Assembly: GCF_004138495.1 (NCBI RefSeq)
Contig: NZ_ML142849.1
Location: forward strand, 82,139-102,640
Direction: 5' to 3'
DNA from: Phytoactinopolyspora endophytica
Lineage (GTDB): Bacteria; Actinomycetota; Actinomycetes; Jiangellales; Jiangellaceae
DNA: 20,502 bases
The position numbers and the translations under genes are program-made. Position 1 is the first letter of the stretch. Each line of letters begins with the position of its first letter. Below the pieces are notes generated by a model. It was not told the DNA's origin. It saw nothing but the letters and a program-made list of their open reading frames with translations, and did not search any database. Below, piece after piece: positions 4,690 to 14,010 of this stretch.

Positions 4690-4734
4690 TTCGCGCGCAT
4701 GGAGTCGATCGCAGGCCCGCCCTGCACAGAAGGA

Positions 4735-4850
4735 GGCGGGGATGGAGAAATTCTGCGATCGATCTTCGGACGGCGGCAGATCAACGCAACCAGCTGGCTC
4801 AAGCCCCCCGCCGGCCGCGTGAGAGTGAGCAGAAATTCTCCCTCCCCACC
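4735..4850 (+). repeat. Dispersed long-hairpin element, copy A
   Basis: Arms 4735-4756 and 4829-4850 pair at 19 of 22 positions and enclose a 72-nt loop. The loop contains a second stem, CGGCGG (4771-4776) with CCGCCG (4808-4813). A closely related element lies at 10294-10408 in the same orientation. Shared blocks are TTCTGCGA, CGATCTTC, CGGCGGCAGA, CAACGCAACCA, CCGCCGGCCGCGTGAGAG and GAGCAGAAAT. It fills most of the 212-bp gap between the convergent lipoprotein gene and hemE, so a termination role is possible. A small non-autonomous mobile element or a structured RNA are alternatives. Confidence 0.8.
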
Positions 4851-4901
4851 GGCCTTTCAGCTTGGGGCGCTCTGGATGCGCTGGGAGGACGCGCCCGGCG
4901 T

Positions 4902-5915
4902 TCAGGAGGCGACGCGTTGAACGCGCTCGACGACGCGGGCCAGGACGTCCGGATCGGTGGAGGGCAGCACGCCGTGACCGAGGTTGAATACGTGCCCCGG
5001 GGCGGCGCGCCCTTCCCCCACGATCCGGTCCACGTCCGCCTCGATGACGGTCCAGTCCGCAAGCAGCAGCGCCGGATCGAGGTTGCCCTGCAGCGACGCC
5101 CCCGGCACCCGGCGTGCCGCCTCGTCGAGCGGGAGCCGCCAGTCGACCCCGACGACCTCTGCGCCGGCCTCGGCTATCAAAGGCAGGAACTCCGATGTCC
5201 CCACCCCGAAGTGGATCCGTGGCACATCGGTGACCTCGGCCAGCACGGCAGCACTGTGCGGCAGGACGTAGCGTTCATACTCGGACCTGGACAGCGCTCC
5301 GGCCCACGAGTCGAACAGCTGGACCACATCGGCCCCGGCGTCGATCTGGACCCGCAGGAACGTGGCGGTGATCTGGGCGACGCGGGCGAGCAGCTCGTTC
5401 CAGGTGTCGGGCTCACTGTGCATCAGCGCCTTGGTCCGCTCATAGTGCCGTGAAGGCCCGCCTTCCACGAGGTAGGACGCGAGCGTGAACGGCGCTCCGG
5501 CGAAGCCGATCAGCGGCGTGCCCCCGAGTTCACCGACCAGTCCCTGCACCGACTCGGTCACGAAGGCGACGTCGTCCGGTGTGAGCGGAGGCAACCGGTC
5601 CAGGTCGGACCGGCCACGCACCGGCTCCGCGACGACAGGTCCCACCCCGGGCTTGATCTCGACGTCCACGCCCGCGGCACGCAGCGGGACGACGATGTCG
5701 GAGAAGAAGATGGCCGCGTCGACGCCGTAGCGGCGCACCGGTTGCATCGTGATCTCTACCACCATGTCCGGCCGGCGGCACGACTCGAGCATCGGCACGC
5801 CTTCTCGGACCTTCCGGTACTCGGGCAGCGACCTGCCTGCTTGACGCATGAACCACACGGGTGGACGCTCAGTTCGCTCCCCGCGGCACGCGCGGACCAG
5901 AAGGCTATCGTTCAC
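4902..5915 (-). CDS. hemE: Uroporphyrinogen decarboxylase
   Basis: The product (337 aa, full family length) converts uroporphyrinogen III to coproporphyrinogen III by four decarboxylations, without a cofactor, in the cytoplasm. Both family signatures are present: [19 protein letters not shown] near residue 19 (Ser where many family members have Tyr) and [17 protein letters not shown] in mid-chain. The catalytic Asp is D73 in FFSDIVVPL, and H314 lies in NLGHGVLP. The start is GTG at 5915-5913: an in-frame TGA lies two codons upstream, so nothing longer is possible. No convincing Shine-Dalgarno or -10 box was found, and the 67-bp gap to the divergent DUF3000 gene must hold both promoters. It feeds substrate to CgoX, whose gene is 1.3 kb away on the same strand. 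Confidence 0.96.
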
Positions 5916-5946
5916 ATCTCAATCGTGGCATGCCGGGCGCGCCTCG

Positions 5947-5975
5947 CTGACAGCGGGCGCATTCGGGCCTAACCT
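5947..5975 (+). promoter_or_regulatory. Promoter giving a leaderless DUF3000 / RNase D mRNA
   Basis: CTGACA (5947-5952), a 17-nt spacer and TAACCT (5970-5975) form a good primary-sigma promoter. The -10 box ends 7 nt before the GTG at 5983, so transcription should begin at or next to the start codon. No Shine-Dalgarno is present, in agreement. Confidence 0.7.
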
Positions 5976-5982
5976 GCGATAT

Positions 5983-6633
5983 GTGGCGAGCAGCAGTGAG
6001 CGGCTCCAACCGGAGACACCGGCCGCCTTCCTCAGGGCGGTCGAGACGTTGCGCTCTGCCCAGTTCCGCGCCGAGGTGCAGCTGGAAGAGCCCCCCGCGC
6101 CGAAACGGCTGGCGACGTACACGTTCGCGCTCAGCGCGGATGTCATCGTCGACGACGAGCACGACCCAGACCCCGATCCAGTAGCCACAGGACGGCTCGT
6201 CCTCCTCCACGAGCCCGATGGCCACGAGGCATGGCACGGAGACTTCCGGCTGGTGACCTACATCCGGGCCAGTCTCGAACCGGAGATGGGCGCGGACCCC
6301 CTGTTGCTCGCGGTCGCCTGGACGTGGCTGACCGATGCTCTCGAGGCTCGCTCCGCGCCCTACACCGCTGCCAGCGGAACCGTGACCCGGGTCAACTCCG
6401 AGGGGTTCGGCGGCATGGCCGACGAGCCGCCGACCTGCGAGGTCGAGATCCGTGCGTCGTGGACTCCGCAGGTCTCCGAGACCAGCTCGGGGCGCGCCGT
6501 CGTCCAGGAGCCCGATCTCGAACCGCACGCCCTCGCCTGGGGAGACGGCCTCACTATGGCAGCCGGTCTGCTGCCTCTGCCCGCGGGTGTTGTGGCCATG
6601 CCGGCACTACGACCGAAGCAACGGCGCCGGTGA
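5983..6633 (+). CDS. DUF3000 family protein
   Basis: The product has 216 aa, with no signal peptide and no membrane span. It matches the actinobacterial family of unknown function that sits beside the RNase D/HRDC gene (Rv2680-like, from memory). Recognisable stretches are TPAAFLRAVETLRSA near the N-terminus, the central segment EPEMGADPLLLAVAWTWL, SAPYTAASGTVTRVNSEGFG and EVEIRASWTP. The start is taken as GTG at 5983 because a promoter with its -10 box 7 nt upstream predicts a leaderless mRNA. The open frame extends further upstream, but that part overlaps the hemE start region and is unlikely to be translated. The stop overlaps the next gene (GTGA), so the two form an operon. Function unknown. 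Confidence 0.85.
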   Translation: MASSSERLQPETPAAFLRAVETLRSAQFRAEVQLEEPPAPKRLATYTFALSADVIVDDEHDPDPDPVATGRLVLLHEPDGHEAWHGDFRLVTYIRASLEPEMGADPLLLAVAWTWLTDALEARSAPYTAASGTVTRVNSEGFGGMADEPPTCEVEIRASWTPQVSETSSGRAVVQEPDLEPHALAWGDGLTMAAGLLPLPAGVVAMPALRPKQRRR

Positions 6634-7835
6634 CCGAAGAGACCCCCGTCCTTCTCACTGAGCCACGGGACGGGCTGCCAGACGTCATCGAGGACGACGA
6701 TGCGCTACAGACCGCGCTGGAGGCGGTCGCCGCCGGTCATGGCCCGGTCGCGATCGACGCGGAACGAGCCTCGGGCTACCGCTACGGCCACCGGGCTTAC
6801 CTGGTGCAGTTGCGACGAGCCGGGGCGGGCACGTTCCTGATCGATCCACTGGGTGTGCCGGACCTCACCGCCCTGGGTGAGGCGATCGGCGATGCCGAAT
6901 GGGTGCTGCACGCCGCCAGCCAGGACCTCCCGTGCCTCAGCGACATCGGTATGTGGCCGGCGGCGCTCTTCGACACCGAGCTGGCTGGACGTCTGCTCGG
7001 CCTGCCGCGCGTCGGGCTGGGACCATTGGTCGAGAGTGTCCTCGGGTTCCACCTGGAGAAGGGACACTCGGCGGCGGACTGGTCGACCCGGCCGTTACCC
7101 GAGGCGTGGTTGCGATACGCGGCACTCGATGTCGAGCTGCTGATCGAGCTGAGGGACGCGCTCGAGGCGCAGCTGCGCGACAGCGGCAAGCTGGAGTGGG
7201 CTCAGGAGGATTTCGCCGCGATCGTGGCCGCGCCGCCGCCCGAACCCCGCGCCGACCCGTGGCGTCGCACGTCGGGCGTGCACCGGGTACGGGACCGCCG
7301 CGGTCTCGCTGTGGTTCGCCAGCTCTGGCTCGAGCGGGACGACCTCGCCCGGATCCGAGACATCTCCCCCGGCCGGATACTTCCCGACGCGGCCATCGTC
7401 GATGCGGCGCTGTCCCAGCCGGCCACCGCGGCCGACCTGGCCAAGCTGCCGGTCTTCAAGGGGCGTGCCCAGCGGCGTGAGCTCAACAGGTGGTTCGGCG
7501 CGATCGCTGCCGCGCGGGCGCTCGAGAAGGAGGACCTGCCGCCCCAGACAGCCCGCTACGACGGACCGCCGCCCGCGCGCAGCTGGGCCTCACGGGAACC
7601 GGAGGCCGCCGCGCGCCTCGCCGCGGCTCGGAACGCGCTGAGCGAGATCGCCGAACAGCACAGTCTGCCCGTCGAGAACCTGCTCACGCCCGATACCCTC
7701 CGCCGGGTGGTCTGGAACCCGCCGGAGCCGCCCACAGTGGAGACCGTCGCCGCGGCCTTCCGGGAGCGAGGAGCACGCGAGTGGCAGATCAGGCTGACCG
7801 CCCGGGCTGTCGCGGAAGCCCTGACCGCACCCTGA
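6630..7835 (+). CDS. Ribonuclease D-like 3'-5' exonuclease with HRDC domain
   Basis: The product (401 aa) has an N-terminal DEDDy exonuclease domain (about 20-195) with the metal ligands visible: AIDAERASGY (D43, E45), HAASQDLPCL (D99) and YAALDVELL (Y163, D167). An HRDC domain follows (about 220-295, RDRRGLAVVRQLWLERDDLA), then a C-terminal extension typical of the actinobacterial proteins, possibly a second HRDC-like unit. Family members trim the 3' ends of stable RNAs. The GTG start overlaps the DUF3000 stop, so it is translationally coupled and shares that promoter. Downstream it meets the convergent FAD-oxidase gene with only 36 bp between stops. All catalytic residues are intact, so it should be active. 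The RNA substrate cannot be deduced. Confidence 0.93.
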   Translation: MTEETPVLLTEPRDGLPDVIEDDDALQTALEAVAAGHGPVAIDAERASGYRYGHRAYLVQLRRAGAGTFLIDPLGVPDLTALGEAIGDAEWVLHAASQDLPCLSDIGMWPAALFDTELAGRLLGLPRVGLGPLVESVLGFHLEKGHSAADWSTRPLPEAWLRYAALDVELLIELRDALEAQLRDSGKLEWAQEDFAAIVAAPPPEPRADPWRRTSGVHRVRDRRGLAVVRQLWLERDDLARIRDISPGRILPDAAIVDAALSQPATAADLAKLPVFKGRAQRRELNRWFGAIAAARALEKEDLPPQTARYDGPPPARSWASREPEAAARLAAARNALSEIAEQHSLPVENLLTPDTLRRVVWNPPEPPTVETVAAAFRERGAREWQIRLTARAVAEALTAP

Positions 7836-7867
7836 TCTCCAGCAGCGCGGTTCTCCAGCAGCGTGGC
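7836..7867. repeat. 16-bp tandem repeat between convergent stop codons
   Basis: TCTCCAGCAGCGCGGT (7836-7851) is followed directly by TCTCCAGCAGCGTGGC (7852-7867), matching at 14 of 16 positions. The pair fills almost the whole 36-bp gap between the RNase D and FAD-oxidase stops. It probably arose by slippage; no hairpin or T-run is evident here. Confidence 0.6.
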
Positions 7868-7871
7868 GCGA

Positions 7872-9275
7872 TCAATGCCCGCCGTCGGTCCGGGAGAAAC
7901 GTTCCCGTGCCACCGTCCAGGCGTACCGGTCGAAGCGCCCGTCGTCGCGAATCGCCTCGACGGCGTCGTAGGCCATCAACAATGCCTGGTGAACGTTGTC
8001 GAAGACGAACAGGCCCTGCCGGCCCAGCGTGACGATCCGTCGGATCATCCTCGCCCACGCGTCGACCTCCGCCAGGTCCTCCTCGTAGCCGAGCCGGTAG
8101 ATGGGGTACACCTGTCCGAGCCGGCGGGTCTCCACGTGGACACGGTTCACGCTGGGCAGACCGGTCAGGCCCAATGTCTCGTCCACCAGGTCCGCCAGCG
8201 ACTCGTCGTCCAGGCCCCACACTTCATCGGTCATAGAGCACGGAATCTCGGCACAGAGCACCGAGTGGTCGTCCGGGTCGCCGGGGTTGTCGCGGTAGTT
8301 CGTCGGCTCGGATATCCGCAGCACCGGGGTCCGCGGGTCCGGAATGTCGTGTGAGTCGTACCGGCTCCACTGGCCACCCTCGTGCACGATGTAGACCAGC
8401 AACATGGCACGGTAGCGCAGCCGCGCGGCCGACTCGATGGAGGTCAGCGATGGCGCCGGCCGCGAGATGCGGGCCAGAACCGGCAGCGGCAGGGTGGAGA
8501 AGACCAGCCCGCCGGTGACCACGTCACCATCCTGGGTGCCGACCTCGACCTCGTCCTCGTAGACGCGGACCCGGTCGACCTCCGCCTCGAGCTTGATGTC
8601 GACGCCCGCGTCGGCCGCAGCATTCGCCAGGGCTTCGACCAGCTCGCCGAACCCGTTCCGGGGGTAGTAGTAGCCGCTCGCCGTCTGCTGTTGCTTCCGC
8701 CGCAACCTGCCCACCGCACGACCGGCGACCTTCCACGCGCTCAGCCGTGCCGACTGCCGGTACGCCTGCTCGGCGCTGATGCCGTCGCCCGGCATGCCCC
8801 ACTGCTTCTCCGCCAACGGCCCATAGACGGTCTCATAGAGTGCGGGGCCGACACGGCTCTGAACCACGCTGGCGTAGCTCTCCTCGCTCCCGCGCCGGAA
8901 CGACATCGTGGCGGAGTCTTTGGCGATGCGGGCCAGCAGCGACGGCGGTAGCCGCCGGGTCACCTCGTCGGCGCGCAACGGCAACGACAGCCACTGGTCA
9001 CCCACCCGGATACGGCTGGACCGGCTTCGCAGCTGAAGATCTTCGCCCAACAGCGACTGCAGGTCGCCGAGCAGTGCCGGCGGAGTCGACCGGTCGAGCC
9101 GGTGCGAGCCCTGGTCACACCGGATCCCCGCCACCTCCACCGTGGCGGCCATACCGCCGACATGGTCCGCACGCTCGAGCAGGGTGACCTTGAAACCACG
9201 CTGCGCAGCGCGCCACGCGGCGACCAGGCCCGCCGGGCCGGCGCCGATGACGATGAGGTCGTGAGAAGTACCCAT
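7872..9275 (-). CDS. FAD-dependent amine-oxidase-fold oxidoreductase (protoporphyrinogen-oxidase/phytoene-desaturase-like)
   Basis: The product has 467 aa. The N-terminus is a classic FAD-binding unit: DLIVIGAGPAGLVAAWRAAQ (GxGxxG at 11-16), Glu34 at the end of strand 2, and DHVGGMAATVEVAGI with the GG doublet. QGSHRLD, YYYPRNGFGELVEAL and the C-terminal FVFDNVHQALLMAYDAVEA complete the amine-oxidase fold. The family covers protoporphyrinogen, carotenoid, sterol and polyamine oxidoreductases; this protein is related to but clearly different from the CgoX encoded 4 kb away. The start ATG (9275) gives the usual short lead before the FAD motif, although its ribosome-binding site is weak. Longer in-frame sequence upstream looks non-coding. 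It is a single gene, convergent with RNase D and divergent from the AlkD-like gene. Substrate unknown. Confidence 0.85.
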   Translation of the reverse strand: MGTSHDLIVIGAGPAGLVAAWRAAQRGFKVTLLERADHVGGMAATVEVAGIRCDQGSHRLDRSTPPALLGDLQSLLGEDLQLRSRSSRIRVGDQWLSLPLRADEVTRRLPPSLLARIAKDSATMSFRRGSEESYASVVQSRVGPALYETVYGPLAEKQWGMPGDGISAEQAYRQSARLSAWKVAGRAVGRLRRKQQQTASGYYYPRNGFGELVEALANAAADAGVDIKLEAEVDRVRVYEDEVEVGTQDGDVVTGGLVFSTLPLPVLARISRPAPSLTSIESAARLRYRAMLLVYIVHEGGQWSRYDSHDIPDPRTPVLRISEPTNYRDNPGDPDDHSVLCAEIPCSMTDEVWGLDDESLADLVDETLGLTGLPSVNRVHVETRRLGQVYPIYRLGYEEDLAEVDAWARMIRRIVTLGRQGLFVFDNVHQALLMAYDAVEAIRDDGRFDRYAWTVARERFSRTDGGH

Positions 9276-9357
9276 GGGGACCGCCAGCCTATCTCTCCAT
9301 ATCCCTTTCACGGCAGGGACACGCGGTCCTCTTGCGGCACGTGAAGAACCGTACGCG

Positions 9358-9416
9358 GCGAACGGCTCCAATATCCGGTTCCAGCATCGCAGGGCGAACG
9401 GTTCCAACATCGCAGG
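9358..9416. repeat. Three imperfect direct repeats in a divergent promoter region
   Basis: Units containing CGGCTCCAATATC (9363-9375), CGGTTCCAGCATCGCAGG (9376-9393) and CGGTTCCAACATCGCAGG (9399-9416) follow one another. The last two match at 17 of 18 positions. GCGAA precedes the first and third. They lie in the 235-bp gap between the FAD-oxidase and AlkD-like genes, so they may be regulator-binding repeats. The rest of the gap shows nothing else apart from the TAATGT box near its end. Confidence 0.6.
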
Positions 9417-9497
9417 TAGTAGCCGCCCGACCGTCCAATTGTCACGATCATGGCGCTGATCAGGCTGACCCGGGCGCGAGGAATGTCGCGGAGGATC

Positions 9498-9503
9498 TAA
9501 TGT
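9498..9503 (+). promoter_or_regulatory. Candidate -10 box for a leaderless AlkD-like mRNA
   Basis: TAATGT fits TANNNT and ends exactly 7 nt before the GTG at 9511. No -35 hexamer is evident at 17-18 nt upstream. A competing reading exists: GGAGG at 9490-9494 would suit an ATG at 9500, opening a four-codon ORF that ends across the GTG. Confidence 0.4.
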
Positions 9504-9510
9504 TGTCGCC

Positions 9511-10233
9511 GTGAGCCGTGAGGACGGACGTTTGGTGATCGAGATCCGCGACGCGCTGCACGCTGCGGCGGACCCGGTTAAGGCTGAGCCCATGCGGGCG
9601 TATATGAAGTCCGAGATGCCGTTCCTTGGCGTCCAGAAGCCGGCCCGGGCTAGAGTTCTGCGCGCGGTTCTACGTACTCGTGCGCTGCCCGATCGAGACG
9701 CGTGGGAGTCGACGGTCAGGGCTCTGTGGGACGAGGCGACGTTCCGCGAGGAGCGCTACGCGGCCACCGATGTGGCTCAGGCACGTCCGTATGCCGAGTG
9801 GGCGCATGACCCGGCGGCGCTTCCGCTGTACGACCACCTCATCGTCACGGGCGCGTGGTGGGACCACGTCGACGACGTCGCGATCCGGCTGGTCGGCCGT
9901 GTGCTGCGGACCGACCCGGCAGCCGCGGCACCACTGGTACGGACCTGGTCGCGCGATCCGGACCGGTGGCGCCGGCGCACCTCGGTCATCTGCCAGGTCG
10001 GGGCCGGAGAAGAGACCGATGTCGAGCTCCTCCGCGAATGTGTGCTCGCCAATATCTACGACCCGGACTTCTTCCTGCGCAAGGGAATCGGCTGGGCGCT
10101 TCGTCAGTACGCCAAGCACGACCCGGCGTGGGTCCGCACCTTCGTGTCCATCCATTACGAGCAGCTCTCCCCTCTCTCCCGCCGGGAGGCTCTGCGCAAC
10201 ATCCTGGCCAACACCCCCATCACCACCAGCTGA
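9511..10233 (+). CDS. AlkD-like DNA alkylation repair protein (HEAT-repeat glycosylase)
   Basis: The product (240 aa) is all-helical with no signal peptide. It matches the AlkC/AlkD superfamily of HEAT-like-repeat DNA glycosylases, which remove N3- and N7-alkylated purines without flipping the base into a pocket. Conserved features are MRAYMKSEMPFLGVQKPAR (29-47), the acidic/aromatic cluster GAWWDHVDDVA (W116, W117, D118, D121), placed like the catalytic Trp/Asp pair of AlkD, and FLRKGIGWALRQYAKHDP near the C-terminus. The start is GTG at 9511, with either a leaderless -10 or coupling to a tiny upstream ORF. It stands alone: the FAD-oxidase gene is divergent, and the next gene is 262 bp downstream behind a long-hairpin element and an operator-like palindrome. 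Activity is likely, but some family members act only on branched DNA. Confidence 0.88.
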   Translation: MSREDGRLVIEIRDALHAAADPVKAEPMRAYMKSEMPFLGVQKPARARVLRAVLRTRALPDRDAWESTVRALWDEATFREERYAATDVAQARPYAEWAHDPAALPLYDHLIVTGAWWDHVDDVAIRLVGRVLRTDPAAAAPLVRTWSRDPDRWRRRTSVICQVGAGEETDVELLRECVLANIYDPDFFLRKGIGWALRQYAKHDPAWVRTFVSIHYEQLSPLSRREALRNILANTPITTS

Positions 10234-10293
10234 CTCCGCTCATGCCAGCGGCGAGAACGAACACTCGCCATGACACGGAAGCAGATCAACCCA

Positions 10294-10408
10294 GCGGGGA
10301 CGAGGGATCTTCTGCGACCGATCTTCTTCCCGGCGGCAGACCAACGCAACCACCACACCAAACGGCCCGCCGGCCGCGTGAGAGCGAGCAGAAATCCCTC
10401 CTCCCCGC
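10294..10408 (+). repeat. Dispersed long-hairpin element, copy B
   Basis: Arms 10294-10315 and 10388-10408 form 20 Watson-Crick pairs with one C-C mismatch and one bulged C, around a 72-nt loop. The loop has an inner stem CCGGCGG (10330-10336) with CCGCCGG (10367-10373). It is the partner of the element at 4735-4850. CAACCCA directly abuts the left end (10287-10293) and recurs at 10416-10422, a possible insertion footprint. It lies between the AlkD-like stop and the operator of the thiolase gene. Confidence 0.8.
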
Positions 10409-10427
10409 GGGACCCCAACCCACCATG

Positions 10428-10450
10428 GCGAGTATTGTTACTCGCGAGTA
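10428..10450. promoter_or_regulatory. Overlapping palindromes, likely operator of the fadA-fadB operon
   Basis: Three GAGTA/TACTC half-sites alternate. GCGAGTA (10428-10434), TTGT and TACTCGC (10439-10445) form one inverted repeat, and TACTCGCGAGTA (10439-10450) is a perfect 12-bp palindrome sharing the middle half-site. This layout is typical of TetR-family operators, which often control beta-oxidation genes. TATTGT (10433-10438) and TAGCAT (10449-10454) are TANNNT boxes inside or at the edge of the site, so binding would block transcription. No TetR gene lies in the window. Confidence 0.6.
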
Positions 10451-10495
10451 GCATGGCCCCAATACCACCGCCGTCTGCCCCACGCAGGAGGTTCC

Positions 10496-13920: not shown

Positions 13921-14010
13921 CAGCCCGCGATACGTGCAGCACGCATGCTTACGCTGCGTAGAACATGCGTCTGCTCGATGAAGAGCAGACGCATGTGAAA
14001 ACGCGGGCTG
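13921..14010 (+). other. Structured element predicted as a three-way junction, upstream of the aldehyde dehydrogenase gene
   Basis: Read by eye, CAGCCCGCG (13921-13929) pairs perfectly with CGCGGGCTG (14002-14010) and encloses two hairpins. The first pairs TAC and GCAGC (13931-13933, 13936-13940) with GCTGC and GTA (13953-13957, 13958-13960), leaving GT bulged. The second is a perfect 14-bp stem, 13963-13976 with 13983-13996, capped by GATGAA. Junction linkers are A, GA and GAAAA. The ribosome-binding site GGGAGA of the next gene starts 10 nt after the closing stem. It could be a 5' UTR regulatory RNA, a small RNA or a U-tract-less terminator of fadA-fadB. I recognise no known RNA family. Confidence 0.7.

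Follow-up and report, generated by a model that had tools for sequence, protein, structure and literature searches.

Palindromic repeats with self-matching arms and differing cores behind genes of Jiangellaceae

Introduction

Base-pair changes that affect both sides of a stem are widely read as strong evidence of a functional RNA fold. A 20,502-nucleotide (nt) stretch of the Phytoactinopolyspora endophytica genome (hereafter the window; the genome is G000) raises the question of whether such changes must carry that meaning. The window contains two long hairpins, copy A at 4735–4850 and copy B at 10294–10408, whose outer stems differ by paired substitutions, and a sequence-only reading had taken these as a sign that the fold is probably kept, either in an RNA or in a hairpin that a protein recognizes. 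The observation is more general than two copies showed. The hairpins belong to F1, and Jiangellaceae have at least two more such families of dispersed palindromic elements; we observed the families, arms that match themselves, F2 cores inverted at two of 15 orthologous sites, different cores at one site, and placement behind genes. As an explanation we prefer, tentatively and with confidence short of even, that F1–F3 are post-gene palindromic DNA repeats, the arms of which are homogenized at the DNA level and the cores of which are exchangeable.

Results

Re-reading of the sequence bore out the coordinates, the common orientation and the 72-nt loops that had been claimed for the two copies. 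Copy A (116 nt) consists of a 22-nt left arm (4735–4756), the 72-nt loop and a 22-nt right arm (4829–4850); copy B (115 nt), likewise on the + strand, consists of a 22-nt left arm (10294–10315), a 72-nt loop and a 21-nt right arm (10388–10408). The three compensatory changes and the inner CGGCGG/CCGCCG stem are also present in both: the outer stem GGAGAA/TTCTCC of copy A reads GAGGGA/TCCCTC in copy B, with three pairs differing and both sides changed each time, and the inner strands lie at 4771–4776 and 4808–4813 in copy A and at 10331–10336 and 10367–10372 in copy B. The loops share the block GATCTTC (4761–4767; 10320–10326) and the two conserved blocks reported earlier, CAACGCAACCA in the apical loop (4782–4792; 10342–10352) and GCGTGAGAG (4817–4825; 10376–10384); GATCTTC and the first eight letters of GCGTGAGAG are invariant in 29/29 aligned copies. 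Copy A is flanked by the stop codons of two convergent genes, a DUF4349 gene and hemE, and copy B lies behind a DNA-alkylation-repair gene (stop 10233), upstream of a thiolase gene (start 10496). Compared with shuffled sequences, copies A and B fold with z scores of −3.7 and −4.7 on the + strand and −3.9 and −4.8 on the − strand, the predicted − strand fold containing an alternative helix in which GCTGGTTGCGT is paired with ACGCGGCCGGC. The likeness of the two copies is not due to chance, because copy A as a query recovers copy B from the whole genome at E 1.6e-19.

A BLAST search of the P. endophytica genome with copy A yielded 29 matches (E ≤ 2.8e-10, at least 74 of 136 bases each, A and B included), from which a covariance model was built. 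Searching with such a model had been proposed as a check on the sequence-only reading; it returned 43 matches at E ≤ 1 in the same genome, 35 of them full-length at E ≤ 2.6e-15, the 29 copies of the model included. Of the other eight, three are echoes on the opposite strand, one is a weak match, and four are weaker copies that are partial, in tandem or interrupted by a gap. Strong matches were found in two of the 40 genomes searched with the model, G000 and Phytoactinopolyspora halotolerans (G002, Jiangellaceae), the latter with nine copies; the remaining 38, among them three congeners, gave zero or only weak matches. Seven weak matches in relatives (L061–L067) were rejected as chance, both invariant blocks occurring together in none of them; by eye, with no protein search made, two of the seven resemble ABC-transporter genes. 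An exact-pattern scan of 84,980 species, one genome each and possibly omitting the records nearest to P. endophytica, retrieved P. halotolerans alone, with eight matches. The earlier statement that no named family fits agrees with the lack of an Rfam match over the F1 elements (window at gathering score; nine F1 loci at E ≤ 10).

From outside to inside, an F1 element is made up of a variable arm, usually TTCTTC/GAAGAA, GA/GA (28/29), a covarying pair (mostly C-G or T-A) and GA/GA (29/29), followed further inward by invariant TC/GA and TT/CGT, a GGNCGGCGG/CCGCCGNCC stem and an apical loop with ACGCAACCAGC. GATCTTC/GCGTGAGA is invariant in 29/29 copies, and on the + strand two tandem G·A pairs are retained in 28–29 of 29; a protein may recognize the invariant blocks. 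The arms belong to a few related types. One subfamily has common flanks (5′ CGAGACCA..., 3′ ...CAACGCAACCAC) that, by eye, are not inverted repeats. Several arrangements of F1 copies were noted besides: pairs in inverted orientation at L082:4324-4656 and L094:2695-3073, both retained in G000 and G002; a copy with a head-to-tail partial duplication at L015:1374-1614; and a same-strand tendency per G000 contig (C1, C8, C12), which holds for 6/7 strong copies on C8. Runs of N occur inside or beside F1 hairpins at L082:4552-4656, L082:5267-5370 and L087:2481-2533; if these are assembly gaps, the F1 copy counts are lower bounds.

Covariation in F1 exceeds that of shuffled alignments. Among the 29 aligned copies, 20/29 stem pairs show a two-sided change somewhere (10.3 ± 1.6 in shuffles) and two-sided cells number 78 (26.1 in shuffles), values that 0/500 shuffles equal; the shuffles ignore relatedness among copies, and sliding the partner by one column leaves only 32–34 cells. 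When F1 arms were scored against their own and against swapped partners, the means were 11.8 and 5.5, the own partner being the best in 23/44 and 0/5000 permutations reaching the observed value. Pairs 12–21 of 44 copies (35 from G000, nine from G002) are Watson-Crick in 409/433 cases (94%), with 4 G·T, 8 A·C and 12 other combinations, and between tandem genes the wobble pairs divide evenly, four on the strand of the genes and four on the opposite strand.

The P. halotolerans hairpin at the site of copy B (site B) resembles copy B in its outer arms but has a different core, and a query made from it led to a second family, F2, which has a 43–60-nt core and arms of 14–31 nt that differ between copies. 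F2 is present in 12/118 genomes, every one Jiangellaceae, and spans three genera. Its arms match themselves: the mean own-arm score is 19.3 versus 4.6 for swapped partners, the own partner is best in 15/15 and 0/5000 permutations reach this, the test using 15 of 20 loci (L112, L119, L121, L125 and L128 left out). Across 40 copies, 909/948 pairs are Watson-Crick, 6 are G·T, 9 A·C and 24 other, in a count that omits L112 (98-nt loop), the apparently decayed L119 and L121, and duplicates; between tandem genes, sense and antisense wobble stand at 4:5. Eight F2 loci gave no Rfam match over the elements at gathering score, and viral contigs gave 0 matches for an F1 pattern or one F2 core, searched as exact patterns only. 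The third family, F3, is the hairpin found at site B in G001. It has six copies with a 60–61-nt core and arms of 23–35 nt that by eye are unlike one another, except for an innermost GGCC common to four. The F1, F2 and F3 cores are mutually unrelated, and the F2 and F3 arms are locus-specific yet self-complementary. Searches of the open-licence PMC literature brought up no description of the three families, which is no proof of absence. A further hairpin repeat, with common GTACCGGATGCTG, occurs at L091:10566-10663, L091:11868-11956 and L021:1660-1762.

Orthologous sites were identified by comparing the surroundings of 167 element entries by BLAST, with some sites entered twice and some genomes partial (G011: 15/23 F2 sites). 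Five F1 loci are shared between G000 and G002, covering 6/9 G002 copies, and by strand the core is inverted at 0/5 of them. For F2, 15 independent sites provided 20 comparisons after one duplicate row was removed, six coming from a single site, and at 2/15 sites the flanks are collinear while the core runs the other way. At one, L181 compared with L134, L136 and L144, identity is 0.75–0.84 inverted and 0.42–0.46 direct; at the other, L178 compared with L157, it is 0.62 inverted and 0.47 direct, and the end motifs are reversed by eye. At L175/L217, identity is 0.57 direct and 0.52 inverted. In the three closest F2 pairs (L117/L169, L152/L167, L173/L194), eight changes are two-sided versus five one-sided.

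Different cores also occupy the same site. F1 in G000 corresponds to F2 in G002 at L005/L130, L006/L177, L014/L109 and L022/L126, and to F2 in G010 at one site, L025/L140. Because L014/L109 led to the discovery of F2, the independent exchange sites between G000 and G002 are three of four; as a rough estimate, with 30 entries for F2, 38 for F1 and gene ends in the thousands, fewer than one coincidence would be expected. By eye, similar shells surround the different cores at two of the four sites, L014/L109 and L006/L177, and site B in three congeners holds F1 (P. endophytica), F2 (P. halotolerans) and F3 (G001). Replacement of F2 by F1 would be the simpler direction, because F2 spans three genera and F1 two species. 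At site A of G002 (L101, the ortholog of window 4690–4901), another hairpin, GAGCTTGGT...ACCAAGCTC, stands in place of F1.

Gene contexts, assigned with a home-made codon-usage gene finder, place the elements behind genes. Between divergent genes lie 0/49 F1 entries (24 (−,−), 16 convergent and 9 (+,+), including one weak match and partial copies) and 0/36 of the F2 copies resolved out of 40. Placed after stop codons and never seen between divergent genes, F1 and F2 are a feature of gene 3′ ends, with a role as terminators that is putative only. Tandem contexts of F1 are skewed 24:9, the − strand being the sense strand of the genes in the majority. No T run follows the right arm in copy A or B, and terminator consensus scans, which cover loops of 3–8 nt only, found nothing at either window copy; T-tracts are often lacking in high-GC actinobacteria.

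Two other features of the window were noted. Ahead of the thiolase gene stands the block GGCGAGTATTGTTACTCGCGAGTA (10424–10455), which recurs little changed at site B of the four congeners; by its look we would guess at a candidate regulator operator. At 13963–13996, about 100 nt behind a fadB-like gene, lies a plain hairpin that has no core, its 14-bp stem perfect and its loop 6 nt long.

Discussion

Taken together, a model for these elements can be proposed. Each would consist of a conserved core (43–75 nt) between self-complementary arms of about 14–35 nt. During DNA replication, one arm may be copied onto the other by template switching within the palindrome, which would be the main reason that complementarity is kept; such copying would turn point changes into paired changes, and the core may occasionally flip. 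The cores would be interchangeable at a given site, and F1 apparently took over sites that hold F2 in relatives. That template switching causes the matching of the arms is something we infer. PMC8604942 attributes arm homogenization and spacer inversion to template switching between inverted repeats, and PMC8794818 proposes the process for paired changes in RNA stems, without selection on the fold. Matched changes alone are thus no proof of a working RNA, because arm-to-arm copying of DNA may produce them. What stands of the claim of a maintained fold is that the family is real and its pairing preserved; paired changes do not securely establish that the fold is maintained. Nearly all-Watson-Crick mid-arms that lack a wobble bias, self-matching but unrelated F2 and F3 arms, and F2 cores inverted at 2/15 orthologous sites all speak against that conclusion, whereas the − strand wobble over the whole F1 stem, at 61:17, could come from an RNA of that strand. 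The RNA reading of the hairpins is weakened.

Several observations fit poorly with arm copying or limit the evidence for it. Over F1 pairs 4–25, A·C combinations, which are G·U on the − strand, number 61 versus 17 G·T, and 28/44 copies score better as − strand RNA, three as + strand RNA and 13 tie; an RNA made from the − strand could produce this excess. The − strand wobble is zoned, with 49/61 A·C at pairs 9–10 (bulge) and 22–25 (outer base), and pairs 11–21 contain 12 A·C versus 8 G·T. By gene context, A·C:G·T is 11:2 in (+,+) and 31:11 in (−,−); since the excess is also present in (+,+) contexts, it is independent of transcription of the neighbouring gene, and inherited element sequence suits it better than cotranscription. 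Fixed-column alignments give many more G·U cells, which we ascribe to indels in the arms, and counts from an alignment mixing both-strand matches of the same F1 copies were kept out of the claims. The F1 arms, unlike those of F2 and F3, are of few related types, and two F2 copies (L119, L121) are by eye apparently without pairing. Pair differences over all 20 F2 comparisons, 224 two-sided and 28 one-sided, are no count of events, because unrelated but paired arms give two-sidedness anyway. At L010, F1 is distinct from a short hairpin that belongs to the gene and is kept in G002, and the different cores at one site may possibly reflect re-insertion at the same gene end.

Each alternative accounts for part of these data. 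If the elements were structured RNAs or terminators at gene 3′ ends, selection on the transcript would keep the pairing, and the core would bind a protein or form a three-dimensional motif. We consider this possible but doubtful. It would explain the position after stop codons and never between divergent genes (F1 0/49, F2 0/36), folding z scores of −3.7 to −4.8, GATCTTC/GCGTGAGA in 29/29 copies with tandem G·A pairs in 28–29 of 29, covariation above all 500 shuffles, and the tandem skew of 24:9 toward − strand sense together with the 61:17 wobble. However, in F1 pairs 12–21 and in F2 the wobble on the sense strand amounts to about 1%, no different from that on the antisense strand, the − strand excess persists where genes run the opposite way, and the F2 core is inverted at 2/15 orthologous sites. 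Another reading, which seems unlikely to us, is that plain hairpins already stood behind genes and small mobile cores entered them at the apex, the arms being the split target of each locus. In its favour, the fetched loci contain 19 plain hairpins, with 14–36-nt arms and loops of at most 15 nt, counted in any position relative to genes, a plain 14-bp hairpin with a 7-nt loop lies at about the F1 position of L010 in G002, and similar shells hold different cores at L014/L109 and L006/L177. Yet no remnant of a target loop is seen where core and arms meet, the inner stem letters are partly conserved, an F2 site common to G002, G003, G009 and G011 has all-different arms, and G003 is without a hairpin at the L006 site.

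Mobilization of REP-like elements by a Y1 (HUH) transposase, acting on them in single-stranded hairpin form, would suit dispersed intergenic palindromes that lack terminal inverted repeats and occur in tandem and inverted pairs, but Y1_Tnp (PF01797) matches 0/5 genomes of the genus versus 5/14 control genomes, and we regard this origin as very improbable. The five genomes are drafts (that of P. endophytica 93.95% complete), and no search for other transposases was made. Miniature inverted-repeat transposable elements are a poor match in that terminal inverted repeats are not conserved here: F2 arms are unrelated between copies, F3 arms likewise by eye, and the flanks of the F1 subfamily, again by eye, are not inverted repeats. 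Decay of duplicated sequence with pairing by chance has next to no probability left and is refuted by the 0/500 shuffles and 0/5000 partner permutations that reach the observed values.

Homogenization of the arms at the DNA level, our preferred explanation, leaves room for a more speculative one, which we rate as rather doubtful: the elements may be minimal selfish elements. The transmissible unit would be the 43–75-nt core, which settles behind genes; its flanks would either be turned into a near-perfect hairpin or be selected for forming one, which would give each copy locus-specific arms, and the unrelated F1, F2 and F3 cores would compete for the same sites, with F1 displacing F2 in one lineage. 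Dispersed hairpins with orthologs in several genomes offer a natural test, in bacteria, of how far template switching of DNA can by itself generate covariation, and unrelated cores that replace one another at a single gene end hint at a mode of spreading so far undescribed.

Integron attC sites likewise have variable but self-complementary arms and stand behind genes; here, the arms are near-perfect and the cores long and conserved. Inverted repeats homogenized by template switching (PMC8794818, PMC8604942) share with F1–F3 paired multi-base changes, probable homogenization of the arms and inversion of the spacer, whereas the present elements are dispersed and have conserved cores. REP/BIME elements and REPtrons (PMC8266576) are also high-copy palindromic intergenic repeats; our elements differ in that no Y1 transposase was found in the five genomes of the genus, the arms measure 14–35 nt, and a conserved core of 43–75 nt lies between them. 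The stem-loop sequence (SLS) families of bacterial genomes (PMC2267715) are similarly repeated, mostly intergenic and of common secondary structure, and may differ from the families described here, in which the core is kept while the arms change, and cores alternate at one orthologous site.

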